Assembly (NCBI RefSeq): GCF_014243445.1
Contig: NZ_JACLQD010000001.1
Location: 868,001-932,000 of the forward strand
Direction: 5' to 3'
Length of the DNA: 64,000 bases
From: Paragemmobacter straminiformis
Lineage (GTDB): Bacteria; Pseudomonadota; Alphaproteobacteria; Rhodobacterales; Rhodobacteraceae
Shown here: one piece after another, positions 10,180 to 61,945 of the stretch
Layout: each line of letters begins with the position of its first letter
How positions within the stretch are numbered: position 1 is the first letter of the stretch
Notes under the pieces: model-generated
Told to the model about the DNA's origin: nothing
What the model saw: the letters and a program-made list of their open reading frames with translations, nothing else
The model's database searches: none
Program-made: the position numbers and the translations under genes

Positions 10180-10277
10180 CGAGAGGTTGGCGCGGGCGAG
10201 CGCCTCGCCAACCCGGTCAGGTCCGGAAGGAAGCAGCCGTAACGAGCCCCGCTTGGGTCGTTGTCCAGCCTCTCACC
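10180..10277 (+). ncRNA. ffs: Signal recognition particle RNA (short bacterial 4.5S type)
   Basis: The RNA scaffold of the signal recognition particle, which binds Ffh and targets membrane proteins. The diagnostic apical segment GGTCAGGTCCGGAAGGAAGC is at 10215-10234. The ends close a long hairpin: GAGAGGTTGG (10181-10190) pairs with CCAGCCTCTC (10265-10274). The length of about 97 nt fits the small Gram-negative form. Exact 5' and 3' ends are estimates from pairing. Confidence 0.95.
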
Positions 10278-37963: not shown

Positions 37964-38599
37964 ATGACAGGCTTGCGATTGCTCCTTGTGGCGCTTCTGC
38001 TGCTGCCGCTTCCGGCCGGGGCCGAAGGCGAGCGTGCGGGGGATTTCGACTATTACCTGCTCTCGCTCTCGTGGTCGCCCACGTGGTGCGCCCTGACCGG
38101 CGATGCGCGCGGCGATCCGCAATGCGACCGCCCCCTCGGGTTCACGCTTCACGGTCTCTGGCCGCAATATGACGCGGGATATCCCAGCTATTGCCGAACC
38201 GGCGCGGCCGACCCCGCCCGCAGCGAAACCGCCGCGATGGCCGATATCATGGGCGGCGCGGGCCTTGCCTTCTACGAATGGAAGAAGCATGGCCGCTGCA
38301 CGGGCCTTTCGGCGGCCGATTACTTCTCTACCGCCCGCCGCGCCCATGACAGCATCACCATCCCCCCCGTCCTGCGCCGCCTGTCGAAAGACGTCACCCT
38401 GCCCGCCAGCGTGGTCGAGGACGCCTTCCTCGAATCGAACCCGCAGTTGTCGGGCGACATGCTCACCGTCACCTGCGACGCCGGCATGATCGAAGAGGTC
38501 CGCATCTGCCTGACCCGCGATCTGGAGCCGAGGGCCTGCGGCGCCGATGTGGCCCGCGATTGCCGGATGAAAGACGCGGTGATGGAGCGGGTGCGGTAG
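37964..38599 (+). CDS. Exported ribonuclease T2 family enzyme
   Basis: A 211-aa secreted RNase with a signal peptide (LLLVALLLLPLPAGA). Both catalytic blocks are intact: CAS1 FTLHGLWPQ near residue 61 and CAS2 YEWKKHGRC near 103, with six or more cysteines for disulphides. It probably degrades RNA in the periplasm or outside. A structured 100-bp element begins 41 nt after its stop. Confidence 0.93.
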   Translation: MTGLRLLLVALLLLPLPAGAEGERAGDFDYYLLSLSWSPTWCALTGDARGDPQCDRPLGFTLHGLWPQYDAGYPSYCRTGAADPARSETAAMADIMGGAGLAFYEWKKHGRCTGLSAADYFSTARRAHDSITIPPVLRRLSKDVTLPASVVEDAFLESNPQLSGDMLTVTCDAGMIEEVRICLTRDLEPRACGADVARDCRMKDAVMERVR

Positions 38600-39009
38600 C
38601 GGGCGGAAGGCAAATTGGCGCGTCACAAGCGCAACGACAAGGATTGCCCCGTGGCCCCAAGCCACGGGGCGCGCCCGACCCGCCCCCACGGGGCGGGCGC
38701 ACGTATACGTGCACCCACCCCTCGGGTCGGTCGCGCCCCTGACGTTGCGCGATCCGAATCCGGAGCCGGGACATTCTGCTGACGCCCGGGCAGACAATAA
38801 CGAGAGGGCTTCGGCAGACGCAAACCCTTCGTTTGGTGAACGGGGGATTGCCCCCCCACTCCACCGTCGGTCAACGCACTCCCGACCGCCACGACCTTGC
38901 CATCAATCTCCGTAGGGTGCGCACGCGCGGCGCACCATTACCGCCCCCTCACTCCACCCTCGGTCAGGTAGGGTGCGCACTCGCTGCGCACCGCCCCCAC
39001 CAACGCCCC
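38600..39009. other. Repeat-rich intergenic region between RNase T2 and quinone oxidoreductase genes
   Basis: 410 nt without a gene. It contains the 100-bp structured repeat (38641-38740), a middle stretch with no recognised feature, and two tandem GTAGGGTGCGCA repeats (38927-39000) that run into the end of the next gene. Confidence 0.7.
38641..38740 (+). repeat. Structured 100-bp dispersed element, copy 1
   Basis: 95 of 100 bases match copy 2 (60788-60887, minus) without gaps. Element positions: hairpin A 6-15/21-30; long stem B 26-40/85-99 (14 of 15 pairs); hairpin C 41-46/50-55; palindrome GCACGTATACGTGC at 59-72. A and B exclude each other. It lies 41 nt after the RNase T2 stop. Confidence 0.9.
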
Positions 39010-39020
39010 TCACTCCACCT
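38927..39020. repeat. Tandem imperfect repeat including the 3' end of the quinone oxidoreductase gene
   Basis: GTAGGGTGCGCA followed by a self-complementary TGCGCACC-type arm and CTCACTCCACC occurs twice (starting about 38927 and 38970). The second CTCACTCCACC is the last codons of the oxidoreductase gene. A third, isolated CCCACTCCACC is near 38858. Confidence 0.65.
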
Positions 39021-39999
39021 TCAGCACGATCTTGCCCACATGGCCCGAGCTTTCCATCCGCGCATGCGCCTTCGCGGCATCCTCGAGCGCGAATTCGCTG
39101 TCCATCACGGGGCGGAACTTTCCGGCCGCGATCATCGGCCAGACATGCGCCTCCACCTCGGCGGCGATGCGCGCCTTGGCAAGGTCGCTCTGCGGGCGCA
39201 GGGTCGACCCTGTGATCGTCAACCGCCGCATCATCACCTCGGCAAAGTTCAACTCCACCTTCGGCCCCTGCAGAAAGGCGATCTGCACCAACCGCCCCTC
39301 CGTCGCCAGGGCCTTGACGTTGCGCGGCAGGTAGCTGCCCCCGACCATGTCGAGGATCAGTTGCGCCCCCCCCTCGTCATGCATCATCGCCACGAAATCG
39401 CCGGTGCGGTAATTCAGCGCCTTGTCGGCCCCCAAATCCTCGCAGGCGGCGCATTTCTCGTCAGAGCCCGCGGTGGTGAAAACCCGCGCCCCCAGCGCCT
39501 TGGCGATCTGGATGGCCGTCGTGCCGATTCCCGACGATCCGCCATGCACAAGAAAACGCTCGCCCGCCCGCAGGCCCCCGCGCATCACCACATTCGACCA
39601 GACGGTGAAACAGGTCTCGGGCAGGCAGGCGGCCTCGCGCATCCCCATCCCCGCCGGCACCGGCAGGGCATGCGCCTCGGGCGTCGCCACATATTCCGCG
39701 TATCCCCCGCCCGGCAGCAGGGCGCAGACCTTGTCGCCGATCTGCCACCGCGTGACGCCCGGCCCCACCTCGACCACCGTCCCCGACGCCTCGAGCCCCG
39801 GCAGGGGCGAGGCATTGGCAGGCGGCGCATAGCTTCCCGCCCGTTGCAGCGCATCGGGGCGGTTCACGCCGGCATAGGCCACGCGGATCACGATCTGCCC
39901 GTGTTTCGGCACTGGCACCGGCTTGGTCGCCGGCACCAGCACCTCGGGCCCGCCGGGTTCGCGGATCTCCACGGCGCGCATCGTGTGGGAAAGTTCCAT
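39010..39999 (-). CDS. NAD(P)H quinone oxidoreductase, PIG3-type zinc-independent MDR
   Basis: A 329-aa medium-chain reductase. The N-terminal half has the family pattern VKIRVAYAGVNRPDALQRAG with small changes; the cofactor motif is VHGGSSGIGTTAIQIAKALG near residue 150. The STLRPQS segment is typical of PIG3-like quinone reductases. Followed upstream by coq9, 16 nt away, so the pair may serve quinone metabolism. Confidence 0.9.
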   Translation of the reverse strand: MELSHTMRAVEIREPGGPEVLVPATKPVPVPKHGQIVIRVAYAGVNRPDALQRAGSYAPPANASPLPGLEASGTVVEVGPGVTRWQIGDKVCALLPGGGYAEYVATPEAHALPVPAGMGMREAACLPETCFTVWSNVVMRGGLRAGERFLVHGGSSGIGTTAIQIAKALGARVFTTAGSDEKCAACEDLGADKALNYRTGDFVAMMHDEGGAQLILDMVGGSYLPRNVKALATEGRLVQIAFLQGPKVELNFAEVMMRRLTITGSTLRPQSDLAKARIAAEVEAHVWPMIAAGKFRPVMDSEFALEDAAKAHARMESSGHVGKIVLKVE

Positions 40000-58235: not shown

Positions 58236-59948
58236 ATGCCCCTTCGCCTCGCCCGACCCATTCTCGCGCTGACGCTGGCAGCCTTCACGCTGCCCGCCCT
58301 CGCGCAGGACAAACCGTCAGGCGAGGATGCGGGCGCCTATCTCGCCGCCCGCGTCGCCGCGACCGAGAACGACTATGCCGAAGCCGCCGCGTGGTATGAC
58401 CGCCTGCTGCAATCGGCCCCGAACGACCCCGCCCTTCTCGAAGGGGCCGTGATCTCGAACATGGGCCTTGGCGACGTGGCGAAAGCCGCCGGATTTGCCG
58501 ACCGTCTTGCCAAGGCGGGTGGCACCTCGCAGGTGGCATGGACCGCGACCATCGCCGAAAAGGCGCAGAAAGGCGACTTCAAGGGCATCATCGACGACCA
58601 GAAAGCCGGTCGCACGGCGGGCAAATTGCTCGACGGTCTGGTGACCGCATGGGCTGCCTTGGGCAACGGCGACATGACCGACGCGCTGGCAGGCTTCGAC
58701 GCCCTGTCCAAGACGCAGGGCCTCGAAGCCTTCGGCCTCTATCACAAGGCCCTCGCCCTTGCCTCGGCGGGCGATTTCGAAGGGGCCGACGACATCCTGT
58801 CCGGCAAGGACTCGGGCCCCATCGCCGTCATGCGCCGTGGGGTGATCGCCCATGTGCAGATCCTGTCGCAACTCGAACGCAACCCCGACGCCATCGCCCT
58901 GCTCGACCGCAACTTCGGGACCGAGGCCGATCCCCAGATCGACGCCCTCCGCACCCGTCTCAAGGCGGGCGAGGTCTTGCCCTTCGACATCGTCACCAAC
59001 GCCAAGGACGGCATAGCCGAGGTGTTCTTCACCCTTGCCGCAGCCCTGCGCGGCGAAGCCGATGACGGTTTCACCCTGCTTTACACCCGCATCACCGCCT
59101 ATCTGCAACCCGGCCACGGCGAAGCCCTGCTGCTTTCGGCGGCCCTGCTCGAATCGCTGGGCCAACCTGCCTTGGCCGAAGAAACCTACGCGCTGATCCC
59201 CGCCGACAGCCCCAGCTACCACATCGCGGAAATCGGCCGCGCCGACACGCTTTTTGCCCAAGACAAGTCCGATGCCGCGATCGAGGTGCTGCAATCGCTC
59301 GCCCGCACGCATGGCAACCTTGTCGCCGTGCAGACCGCCCTTGGCGATGCGCTGCGCCGCGAGGAACGCTTCAAGGAAGCCATCCCCGCCTATGACGCCG
59401 CCATCGGCCTGATCGGCAAACCCGAACGCCGCCACTGGGGCCTGTTCTACGCCCGCGGTATCAGCCACGAACGCAGCGGCGATTTCAAAACCTTCGAATC
59501 CGACCTGCGCCGCGCGCTCGAACTCGAACCCGACCAACCGCAGGTGCTGAACTACCTCGGCTACAGCTTCGTCGACCGGGGCGAGAACCTCGACGAGGCG
59601 ATGAAGATGATCCAGACCGCCGTCGCCAAGCAACCCGACGCGGGCTACATCATCGACAGCCTCGCTTGGGCCTATTTCCGCCTGGGCAAATACGAAGAGG
59701 CTGTCGAACCGATGGAGAAGGCCTCGCTCCTCGAGCCGGTCGATCCCATCGTCACCGACCATCTGGGCGATGTCTACTGGGCCGTCGGCCGCCAACGCGA
59801 AGCGCAGTTCCAATGGCGCCGCGCCCTGTCCTTCGACCCCGAAGAGAAGGACGCCACCCGCATCCGCGCCAAGCTGGAAAAGGGTCTCGATGCCGTGCTT
59901 GCGGCCGAGGGTGCAAAGCCCCTGACCGACGTGGCGGATGGCAACTGA
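58236..59948 (+). CDS. Exported tetratricopeptide-repeat protein
   Basis: A 570-aa periplasmic or lipid-anchored TPR protein. Signal peptide ending [12 protein letters not shown] units are clear in the last third ([55 protein letters not shown]). Acts as a protein-binding scaffold; partner unknown. Its stop overlaps ispE by 11 nt. Confidence 0.88.
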
Positions 59949-60768
59949 ATTCGCACCGGCCAAGATCAATCTCGCGCTGCACGTCACAGGGCAGCGCGCC
60001 GATGGCTACCACCTGCTCGACAGCCTCGTGGTCTTTGCCGATACGGGCGACCGCATCACGGCAAAGGCCGCGCCCGACCTGACCCTTTCGATCACCGGCC
60101 CCCGGGCAGCAAGCCTGCCTGCCACGGATGACAACCTTGTCCTGCGCGCCGCCCGCGCGATCGGGGTGACGGCGGCGATCACGCTCGACAAGCACCTGCC
60201 CATCGCCTCGGGCATCGGCGGCGGCTCCTCGGACGCTGCGGCAACCCTGCGCGCCCTTGCCCGCCTGTCGGGCAAGGCCATGCCCGATGCGGCGGCGATC
60301 CTGTCTCTGGGCGCGGATGTTCCGGTCTGCCTCGCGCCGCGCCCGGTCCGCATGACGGGCATCGGCGAGACGCTCGCGCCCCTTGCCCATGCGCTGCCCC
60401 CGTCATGGCTGGTGCTGGTGAACCCCGGCGTTGCCGTCTCGACGCCGCAGGTGTTCAAGGCGCTGGCCCGCCGCGACAACGCAGGCCTGAAGCCTTTGCC
60501 GAAACTGGCCAACACCGCCGAATTCGCCGCTTGGCTTGCCATGCAACGCAACGACCTCGAGGCCCCCGCACAAGGTCTTTTGCCCGAGATCGCGGCCATG
60601 AAATCCGCCCTCACCGCGCAGCAAGGCTGCCTGCTCGCCCGCATGTCGGGTTCGGGCGCCACCTGCTTCGGCCTGTTCGCCGACCCGCTTTCCGCCCATG
60701 CCGCGGCAACGGCGATCCGCCACGCGCAGCCCCTGTGGTGGGTGGCCGACGCGGCGGTTATGGCCTGA
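59938..60768 (+). CDS. ispE: 4-diphosphocytidyl-2-C-methyl-D-erythritol kinase
   Basis: A 276-aa GHMP kinase of the MEP isoprenoid pathway. Features: [21 protein letters not shown] at the N-terminus, ATP loop [20 protein letters not shown] and C-terminal [12 protein letters not shown]. The isoprenoid theme continues with the convergent polyprenyl diphosphate synthase gene. Confidence 0.95.
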
Positions 60769-60787
60769 CATATTTGCCGATTGCGGT

Positions 60788-60887
60788 AGGTGCGCGCCCG
60801 AACCGAGGGGTGGGTGCACGTATACGTGCGCCCGCCCCGTGGGGGCGGGTCGGGCGCGCACCGTGGCTTGGGGCCACGGTGCAATCC
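60788..60887 (-). repeat. Structured 100-bp dispersed element, copy 2
   Basis: Ungapped 95% match to 38641-38740. Read on the minus strand it begins 56 nt after the stop of the polyprenyl synthase gene, the same orientation relative to the upstream gene as copy 1. Changes at element positions 8, 28 and 97 keep both alternative helices paired. Confidence 0.9.
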
Positions 60888-60943
60888 CTGCCGATGTGCA
60901 ACATGTCTGGACCGCCATTGGGGCGAAGCCCACAACCCCGCGC

Positions 60944-61945
60944 TTAAGCGATCCGCGCCACCACATAGCCCGCCAGATCGTCCAGCATCGCGCGCAGCGG
61001 ATGCTCGGGCATCACGGCCAAAGCCGCCCGCGCCTTGGCGACCCATGCCAGCGCCTCGGCCCGTGCGGCCTCCATCGCGCCATGCTTGGCCATCAGCGCC
61101 CGCGCATGGGCCAGATCGCCCTCGTGCTGGTCGCCCTTTTCGATCACCCGCACCCAAAAGGCCCGCTCTTCGGCATCGGCCTTGGCCACGGCCTTGATCA
61201 CCGGCAGCGTCAGCTTGCGCTCGCGGAAATCGTCGCCGGTGTTCTTGCCGATGGCGGCATCGGTCCCGCCGTAATCCAACAGGTCATCGACGATCTGGAA
61301 GGCGATCCCCAGCGCATCGCCATAATCGCGCAAGGCCAGCACCTGCGCCTCGGGCACGCCCGAAATCACGGCGCCCACTTCCGTCGCCGCAGCGAACAAA
61401 GCCGCCGTCTTGCCGCGCACCACCGTCAGATAGATCGCCTCGGTCGTCGCCAGATCCTGCGCCGCCGTGAGCTGCAAGACCTCGCCCTCCGCGATCACCG
61501 CCGAGGCATTCGCCAGAATGTCCATCACCCGCAGCGATCCTGTCTCCACCATCAACTGGAAGGACCGCGCGAACAGGTAGTCGCCCACCAGAACGCTCGA
61601 CTTGTTGTCCCACAGCAGGTTCGCCGTCGGCCGCCCGCGCCGCCGCTCGCTTTCATCCACCACGTCGTCATGCAGCAGCGTGGCGGTATGGATGAACTCG
61701 ACCGTCGCCGCCAGCTTCACATGGTTGTCGCCCGCATAGCCGCACAGCCGCGCCGCCGCCAGGGTGAGCATCGGCCGCAACCGCTTGCCACCCGCTTCCA
61801 CCAGATGCGCCGTCACCTCGGGAATACGCGGCGCATGTTCGCTTGCCATCCGCGTGCGGATCAACGCATTGACCGCCGCCATGTCGTCGGCCAGCCACGC
61901 CGCCAGCCTGTCATGCGGTTTCTGCGAAGCGTCCATCAAACCCAT
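60944..61945 (-). CDS. ispB: Long-chain polyprenyl diphosphate synthase
   Basis: A 333-aa trans-prenyltransferase making the ubiquinone side chain. First aspartate motif LLHDDVVDES near residue 91, second FQIVDDLLDY near residue 218; KRLRP and the GRPTAN region are present. Small residues upstream of the first motif fit a long product. ATG at 61945 follows GGGGGAAG; the upstream extension is antisense to the DUF2007 gene. Confidence 0.93.
   Translation of the reverse strand: MGLMDASQKPHDRLAAWLADDMAAVNALIRTRMASEHAPRIPEVTAHLVEAGGKRLRPMLTLAAARLCGYAGDNHVKLAATVEFIHTATLLHDDVVDESERRRGRPTANLLWDNKSSVLVGDYLFARSFQLMVETGSLRVMDILANASAVIAEGEVLQLTAAQDLATTEAIYLTVVRGKTAALFAAATEVGAVISGVPEAQVLALRDYGDALGIAFQIVDDLLDYGGTDAAIGKNTGDDFRERKLTLPVIKAVAKADAEERAFWVRVIEKGDQHEGDLAHARALMAKHGAMEAARAEALAWVAKARAALAVMPEHPLRAMLDDLAGYVVARIA

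Follow-up and report, generated by a model that had tools for sequence, protein, structure and literature searches.

A folded intergenic repeat of the Rhodobacteraceae with persistent sites and changing occupants

Two copies of a folded repeat and their neighbours

The window, that is, the whole stretch of 64,000 nucleotides that was analysed, contains two closely similar copies of a folded element, each located between convergent genes. Copy 1 with its tails (CGCAACG ... CGTTGCG) occupies positions 38630-38756 of the plus strand, where it matches positions 1-127 of model R1 with 125.4 bits. It is preceded by a gene of the RNase T2 family on the same strand (37964-38599; PF00445, E 4e-16) and faced by a minus-strand gene of the alcohol/zinc-binding dehydrogenase family (39010-39999; PF00107, PF13602 and PF08240). 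Copy 2 with its tails lies on the minus strand at 60772-60898 (model R1, 124.8 bits), downstream of a polyprenyl synthetase gene (60944-61936, minus strand; PF00348, E 1e-75), and its convergent neighbour is a GHMP kinase gene on the plus strand (59938-60768; PF00288 and PF08544), which we take to be of the IspE type. The cores, as delimited in the first-pass annotation, extend from 38641 to 38740 (copy 1, plus) and from 60788 to 60887 (copy 2, minus); they lie 41 and 56 nt from the upstream stop codon, respectively, and that of copy 2 is 19 nt from the end of the GHMP kinase gene. No repeat listed for the window is longer than the one formed by the two copies (112-nt arms, 92% complementary), whose GC contents are 0.76 and 0.72.

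Consistent with the first-pass annotation of this DNA, the two cores align without gaps over 100 nt and differ at exactly five positions (copy 1/copy 2: 8 C/A, 28 G/T, 86 G/T, 91 T/G and 97 C/A), all of them inside predicted helices. Hairpin A (6-15 with 21-30) is paired at every position in both copies, and stem B (26-40 with 85-99) has a single mismatch per copy, at pair 34-91 in copy 1 and at pair 39-86 in copy 2. Both copies fold better than all of 200 dinucleotide shuffles (z -5.8 for copy 1 and -6.3 for copy 2). On inspection, neither window copy has a T run after its stems, whichever strand is read, hence no intrinsic-terminator pattern. The region 38500-38850 gave three Rfam matches (E 1.9-8.5), all far below the gathering scores, and eight loci with copies gave no match with E up to 0.1; in the window, the gathering score was reached by SRP RNA only. 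The latter, a bacterial small SRP RNA (RF00169, 56.6 bits), is located at 10181-10277 on the plus strand.

Distribution, fold and strand polarity of the repeat

The repeat comprises a core of about 110 nt, or about 127 nt with tails, and occurs as intergenic units of about 80-130 nt. The genome that includes the window (G000) has four closely similar copies (93-100% identity to copy 1), two in the window and one each on contigs C9 and C12, the latter two with 94-95% identity to copy 1, as well as several diverged copies. On contig C12 of this genome, two copies (139410 and 141484) lie about 2 kb apart with called genes between them. Nine of the 19 genomes of the genus, G000 included, carry the repeat with 7-51 blastn matches per carrier, palindromic copies being partly counted on both strands, and a second model detects it in the same nine genomes. 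In the family, a model built from 87 genus copies has matches at E <= 1e-6 in at least 87 of the 295 genomes drawn, again including G000; since 11 candidates were scored per genome, the family copy numbers, and perhaps the genome tally too, are lower bounds. The first-pass annotation had proposed such a covariance-model search, which did bring out further copies; the reading as a switchable 3' element that went with it did not hold. A class-wide draw of 289 genomes gave five with a match, namely G000, three further members of its family and one genome from a different family.

Seven family matches and 47 family loci, all read directly, have a common architecture, and the plus-strand consensus is composed of hairpin A (of varied sequence), GCGCCCGAACCG, CCCCCA, CGGGGCGGGCGC, a short loop, CGCCCACCCC, T, CGGTTCGGGCGC and often GCCC. 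Two of the 80 RNase T2 loci of the family have, as at copy 1, a weak match 3' of the gene, at about 60 and about 120 nt (E 7e-5 and 0.002); model R2, made from reversed copies, gave weaker E-values than R1 for these RNase T2 loci, plus one extra match far from the gene (L073). Distant blastn against plasmid and phage collections gave no match to the repeat, and an exact 30-base core pattern gave none in viral contigs. No paper on the repeat was found in a literature search that was judged by titles and abstract openings and whose coverage leaves most subscription journals outside.

Three alignments were used to describe the fold. From 123 match rows in the genus, 113 span most of the core and 110 were aligned (minus two edge rows and one duplicate); 87 of these were kept in alignment A1, copies with internal insertions, deletions or odd hairpins being left out. 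Alignment A2 contains 41 of the 47 family loci (two of the 47 come from G000), and A3 combines 38 family and 7 genus copies. On copy 1, hairpin A spans 38646-38670 (arms 38646-38655 and 38661-38670, plus strand) and stem B spans 38666-38739 (arms 38666-38682 and 38723-38739, plus strand), residues 38666-38670 being common to both; 98.7% of the cells of A and 92.6% of those of B are paired in the 87 genus copies. Hairpin E', assigned to the minus strand, spans 38690-38721 (arms 38690-38703 and 38708-38721) and caps stem B, beside which hairpin A is placed. An alternative plus-strand hairpin D at 38671-38700 (arms 38671-38682 and 38689-38700), which excludes B and E', is paired at 93.4% in the genus.

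The covariation scores in the genus (A 0.395, B 0.277 and D 0.205), which may be inflated by related sequences, are above those of all slid versions and reached by none of 500 shuffles. Pairs changed on both sides are not unusually numerous for A and B (their number is reached by 106 and 53 of the 500 shuffles, respectively), so that the evidence from the genus rests on the joint distribution. At the level of the family, 10 pairs of B and E' are changed on both sides in the 41 copies vs 2.1 in shuffles (reached by 0/500), and the inner 12 pairs of stem B are paired at 95.5%. In 37 of these copies, hairpin A forms a perfect stem of 5-11 bp with very different sequences, the other four having no perfect one. 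Hairpin D is weak there, two columns being mostly A.G (38/41 and 23/41), and we therefore consider A, B and E' as the supported fold. Indeed, these three helices covary.

The first-pass annotation had described A and B as mutually exclusive helices that share a strand. This three-way covariation is real in the genus, where residues 37-41 (genus alignment numbering) are able to pair with either neighbouring strand and the triple 18-40-107 across A and B reads CGC in 58, GCG in 11 and ATA in 8 of the 87 copies. Only 17 of the 41 family copies have at least five consecutive pairs that join the shared strand to the third one, so that the A/B competition does not define the repeat family. In the part of the family concerned, hairpin A and the base of B would compete for one strand and may thereby give two foldings, in a manner comparable to the hairpin and clover proposed for REPINs.

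The mismatches of the fold are polarised between strands. On the plus strand, the family copies contain 47 A.C vs 4 G.T cells in E' and 12 vs 0 in B, and the genus copies 149 vs 2 in E' (outer nine pairs) and 41 vs 9 in B. An A.C cell of the plus strand corresponds to G.U on the minus strand, and one pair is U.G in 39 of the 45 rows of A3. Since the C.A mismatches conserved on the plus strand, as in E', become G.U on the opposite one, the better fold is that of the minus strand, on which the share of standard pairs in B and E' increases from 90.4% to 97.5% (overlapping, non-identical copy sets). RNAfold gives a more stable minus strand in 85 of the 87 genus copies, a count not to be read as a probability because the copies are related (mean -78.4 vs -69.3 kcal/mol). 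Helices A and D lean to the plus strand, with 7 G.T vs 0 A.C in A and 28 vs 5 in D, and the argument for the minus strand thus rests on B and E'. The strand favoured by the wobble pattern in B and E' is not the one folded in the first-pass annotation but its complement; the pattern is compatible with RNA or single-stranded DNA and indicates which strand to look for.

Genomic sites and their occupants

The gene setting was called with a home-made codon-usage gene caller for 118 of the 123 match rows, a few of these segments being halves of one element and one coming from an overlapping locus. None of the 118 overlaps a called gene by more than 30 nt. Among the 105 segments with both neighbours called, 39 lie between convergent genes, 55 between tandem genes (31 and 24) and 11 between divergent genes; the 47 family loci comprise none inside genes, with 10 convergent, 16 tandem and 1 divergent setting and 20 with a missing neighbour. 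Compared with the background, divergent spacers are under-represented (11 seen vs 34-47 expected), convergent (39 vs 26-32) and tandem ones (55 vs 32-41) over-represented; this background is only a rough guide, because it derives from 80 loci around one gene plus the window, i.e. one neighbourhood repeated. The copies are mostly near gene ends, in either orientation, and the neighbour genes of those examined belong to unrelated families. A same-strand gene end lies upstream of 70 of 112 segments and an opposite-strand gene end downstream of 75 of 111, hence no orientation preference. With copies in either orientation relative to genes, the switchable 3' cis element proposed in the first-pass annotation had to be abandoned.

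Comparison of flanks revealed 61 pairs of loci at shared sites: 51 share both flanks (27 in the same orientation and 24 flipped), 8 share one flank (6 same and 2 flipped, one of the 6 consisting of two overlapping loci of one genome) and 2 are odd pairs. Both orientations occur in 13 of the 25 site groups, two of the 13 resting on one flank only. These orthologous sites, at which the orientation is opposite from one species to another, contradict the constant orientation supposed for a cis-regulatory RNA. Among three related genomes, for which 21 (G006), 27 (G014) and 19 (G015) loci were retrieved, the pairwise comparisons gave 13, 9 and 12 shared pairs, an odd one being included in the 13. 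For the three pairs among these genomes, Chapman estimates of the site number are 43, 43 and 42, figures that are approximate with loci picked by similarity to the window copy. In these three species, the occupied sites are roughly one common set of about 43.

Copies at a shared site resemble each other little more than any others. The core identity in G006, G014 and G015 is 0.885 at shared sites (28 pairs, of which 17 exceed their own mean) vs 0.873 for other copies, and 0.813 vs 0.810 in the other genomes (23 pairs). The arm type, whose frequencies differ between genomes, agrees in 11 of 28 shared-site pairs vs 356 of 1161 cross-genome pairs. Some flipped site pairs are nearly identical in the core (0.98-0.99), and some unrelated copies equally so; the turnover of occupants is incomplete, since a few site pairs keep a nearly identical core (0.96-0.99). 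The tails of flipped site pairs are no more alike (0.69 and 0.52, 12 pairs) than those of 1221 random pairs (0.66 and 0.50), so that inversion in place could not be demonstrated; the 17 same-orientation site pairs gave 0.75 and 0.52. This shared-site pattern is concerted evolution, orientation included.

One site, flanked by a LysR gene and an aldehyde dehydrogenase gene, was inspected by eye in the 19 genomes. The repeat is present in eight of the nine carriers, in one orientation in G000, G016, G013, G014 and G015 and in the opposite one in G002, G001 and G005; the ninth carrier (G006) has a 74% match to the query only, with no clear ortholog. Nine non-carriers have a short spacer without repeat at this site. 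In locus L289 of G010, a reduced genome of 1.5 Mb, a seeming decayed remnant of the repeat was noted by eye. On a tree of two regions (two genes) with a midpoint root, the nine non-carriers group together, and the node joining all carriers has a support of 0.21. Given that the repeat is present elsewhere in the family, its loss in the group of nine is the simpler reading, with the root set at the midpoint. These nine grouped congeners without the repeat represent a natural comparison by which the question of what maintains such repeats becomes testable. The copy-2 site (330 nt examined in 18 of the 19 genomes, G008 left out) contains the repeat in G000 only and another hairpin in G016, G013 and G014. 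The latter, which includes CCCCGGACCCCC followed by a TATTT-like or TACTTTT stretch, is present at this site in three congeners and also elsewhere, with 7 matches in 7 of 316 loci (L294, L295, L302, L058, L066, L120 and L202).

Ends, related repeat systems and interpretation

No target-site duplication was detected in 102 copies, the mean longest direct repeat in the flanks being 5.48 vs 5.43 for mismatched flanks, and inverted repeats in the flanks show no excess over the null. Terminal repeats are short and imperfect: 41 of the 102 copies start with CGCAAC, and 31 have a GTTGC, CGTTG or TTGCG string at most 25 nt after the core. As possible partners, we rejected the Y1 transposase (RAYT), for which none of the 19 genus genomes passes the PF01797 cut-off and the nine carriers have no match (one weak match is in the non-carrier G007), as well as the Y2 (IS91-type) transposase, present in only one of nine carriers, and the reverse transcriptase, absent from the nine carriers and present in three non-carriers. 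No related IS was thus found among the Y1, Y2 and reverse-transcriptase families searched, and inspection by eye of ten loci around closely spaced copies revealed no mobiliser, the genes looking ordinary. With neither an excess of flank repeats nor a Y1, Y2 or reverse-transcriptase gene common to the carriers, exchange among copies at persistent sites is a process that we infer only.

REP hairpins have a GTAG-type tetranucleotide at their foot; none was seen on inspection of the A1 and A2 consensus. RIME and other intergenic palindromes of Alphaproteobacteria are palindromic intergenic repeats of about 100 bp; set beside RIME by this general description, our repeat had a model match in one genome of another family among the 289 drawn class-wide. 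Like REP and REPIN sequences, the repeat is short, palindromic, extragenic and present in many copies (PMC3116915), but it consists of one asymmetric unit and not of two inverted REPs, with tens of matches per genus genome at most. The part of the REPIN paper considered proposes two foldings, a stable hairpin whose recognition is unlikely and a clover that is likely recognised by the transposase (PMC3116915), and this duality is formally similar to the A/B competition. In size and foldedness, the repeat is like the MITE-type repeats ERIC, RUP, BOX and Correia (PMC3049150, PMC10969869). In the passages used, RUP and BOX are described as over-represented between convergent genes, which is read as a sign of parasitic elements (PMC3049150), and inversion is reported for Correia elements (review, PMC10969869). 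The repeat differs from this type by the lack of target-site duplication and by occupied sites that are largely common to related species; moreover, it is GC-rich (0.72-0.76 in the window copies), whereas MITEs are described, in the part of the source considered, as AT-rich (PMC3049150). One folded strand is thought to be the active form in attC-type single-stranded DNA and in the OTH-22-1 motif, according to the section used (PMC8632094); the integron attC ends RYYYAAC and GTTRRRY are absent here, the repeat ending, by inspection of the alignment, in CGCAACG and CGTTGCG-like sequences. Finally, the HRC-8-4 motif of Rhodobacterales belongs to the same bacterial order and is described in that section as a terminator-like motif that has a U run and is found near cco operons and hvrB (PMC8632094). 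One repeat site also borders a LysR-family gene, but this description sets HRC-8-4 apart from our repeat, which is dispersed, without U run and faces an aldehyde dehydrogenase gene at the LysR site.

The repeat is real, structured and family-wide. It is ordinary in kind, and what is unusual is the association of persistent sites, random orientation and strand-specific structure. Short repeats of bacteria are commonly regarded either as insertions whose sites vary or as sites that are inherited; in the present case, the site persists, and its occupant and orientation are shuffled. We consider it probable that the copies are short, non-autonomous, dispersed repeats of the MITE/REPIN-like kind in Rhodobacteraceae, with persistent sites and changing occupants. 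Copies would be exchanged or rewritten among these sites by recombination acting on the folded single strand, possibly through ectopic gene conversion, inversion in place or some enzyme, and their position near gene ends may correspond to tolerance or to a modest role as a 3' barrier that acts in both orientations.

A useful function would likewise be in line with this persistence of the sites. The repeat may be a functional, orientation-independent 3' element, i.e. an exonuclease barrier or an aid to bidirectional (Rho-linked) termination selected at gene ends, with occupants rewritten by recombination. Most copies being near gene ends without orientation bias, the retention of sites in several species and the presence of another hairpin at the copy-2 site in G016, G013 and G014 are in keeping with it, but in the two window copies neither strand has a T run after the stems, divergent genes flank 11 of 105 segments, the LysR site with its eight species among them, and nine genomes that group on the two-gene tree live without the repeat; we hold this function possible, if doubtful. 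Far less can be said for a switchable cis-acting 3' RNA, with the mRNA of the upstream gene alternating between helix A and stem B. Although the three-way covariation in the genus and the stop codon before both window copies suggested it, the copies are oriented at random to genes, with a difference between species at one and the same site, only 17 of the 41 family copies pair the third strand and the examined neighbours are of unrelated families, which together make it extremely improbable. More generally, covariation between two genomic copies alone is no evidence of a cis-regulatory RNA. A putative multi-copy small RNA made from the minus strand with its own promoter would account for the wobble pairs of B and E', but single-stranded DNA fits this pattern as well, the polarity of helices A and D points to the plus strand and the tails, where a promoter could be located, are poorly conserved, so we regard it as very unlikely.

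Other explanations concern the history of the copies. The first-pass annotation saw in the matched changes selection on RNA or cruciform structure. Some process does preserve pairing (A and B at the levels given above in the 87 copies, scores beyond all 500 shuffles), but the matched changes could also come from exchange of copies or from quasi-palindrome correction. Such covariation without selection, in which template switching or copy-to-copy conversion would change all arms at once, agrees with arm types that are genome-specific and often different between co-located copies. We regard it as rather unlikely, since the family-wide fold, the very different hairpin A sequences and the conserved wobble column suggest a constraint on the folded strand too. 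Independent insertion into limited hot spots with frequent loss, in place of inherited occupied sites, would produce shared sites with random orientation, mixed arm types and random tails. It would, however, require near saturation in each species, the estimated sites (about 43) being close to the 31-51 matches per genome, and the LysR site is occupied in eight of nine carriers, the ninth being without clear ortholog; we judge it unlikely. A bolder variant of our preferred interpretation, i.e. dispersed repeats at persistent sites, is an exchange of cassettes, where each genome would have about 40 persistent intergenic addresses and the folded minus strand, as DNA or RNA, would be the substrate of some factor that replaces or inverts the occupant, the address being inherited and sequence type and orientation redrawn. 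This we think quite unlikely.

Several copies depart from the common architecture. In a second class (L197, L199, L201, L207, L209, L211, L213, L214, L215, L243 and L244), an additional 3' hairpin is formed around TCCACTGGA or a similar sequence, its stems varying from copy to copy; with two mismatches allowed, stems of 9-17 bp are present in 11 of the 15 distinct matches in the loci, and exact TCCACTGGA is absent from the window. An insert of about 12 nt between the segments X and X', mostly of the GAGTCTGA or GAGTCAGA type, is present in L172, L175, L178, L181, L190, L191, L196, L198 and L200. In the family copies L241, L247 and L256, the E hairpin has a long insert, which measures about 65 nt in L247. 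Finally, L212 (1201-1261) is a short copy that, by eye, resembles a deletion between the GGGCGC stretches of X' and X''.
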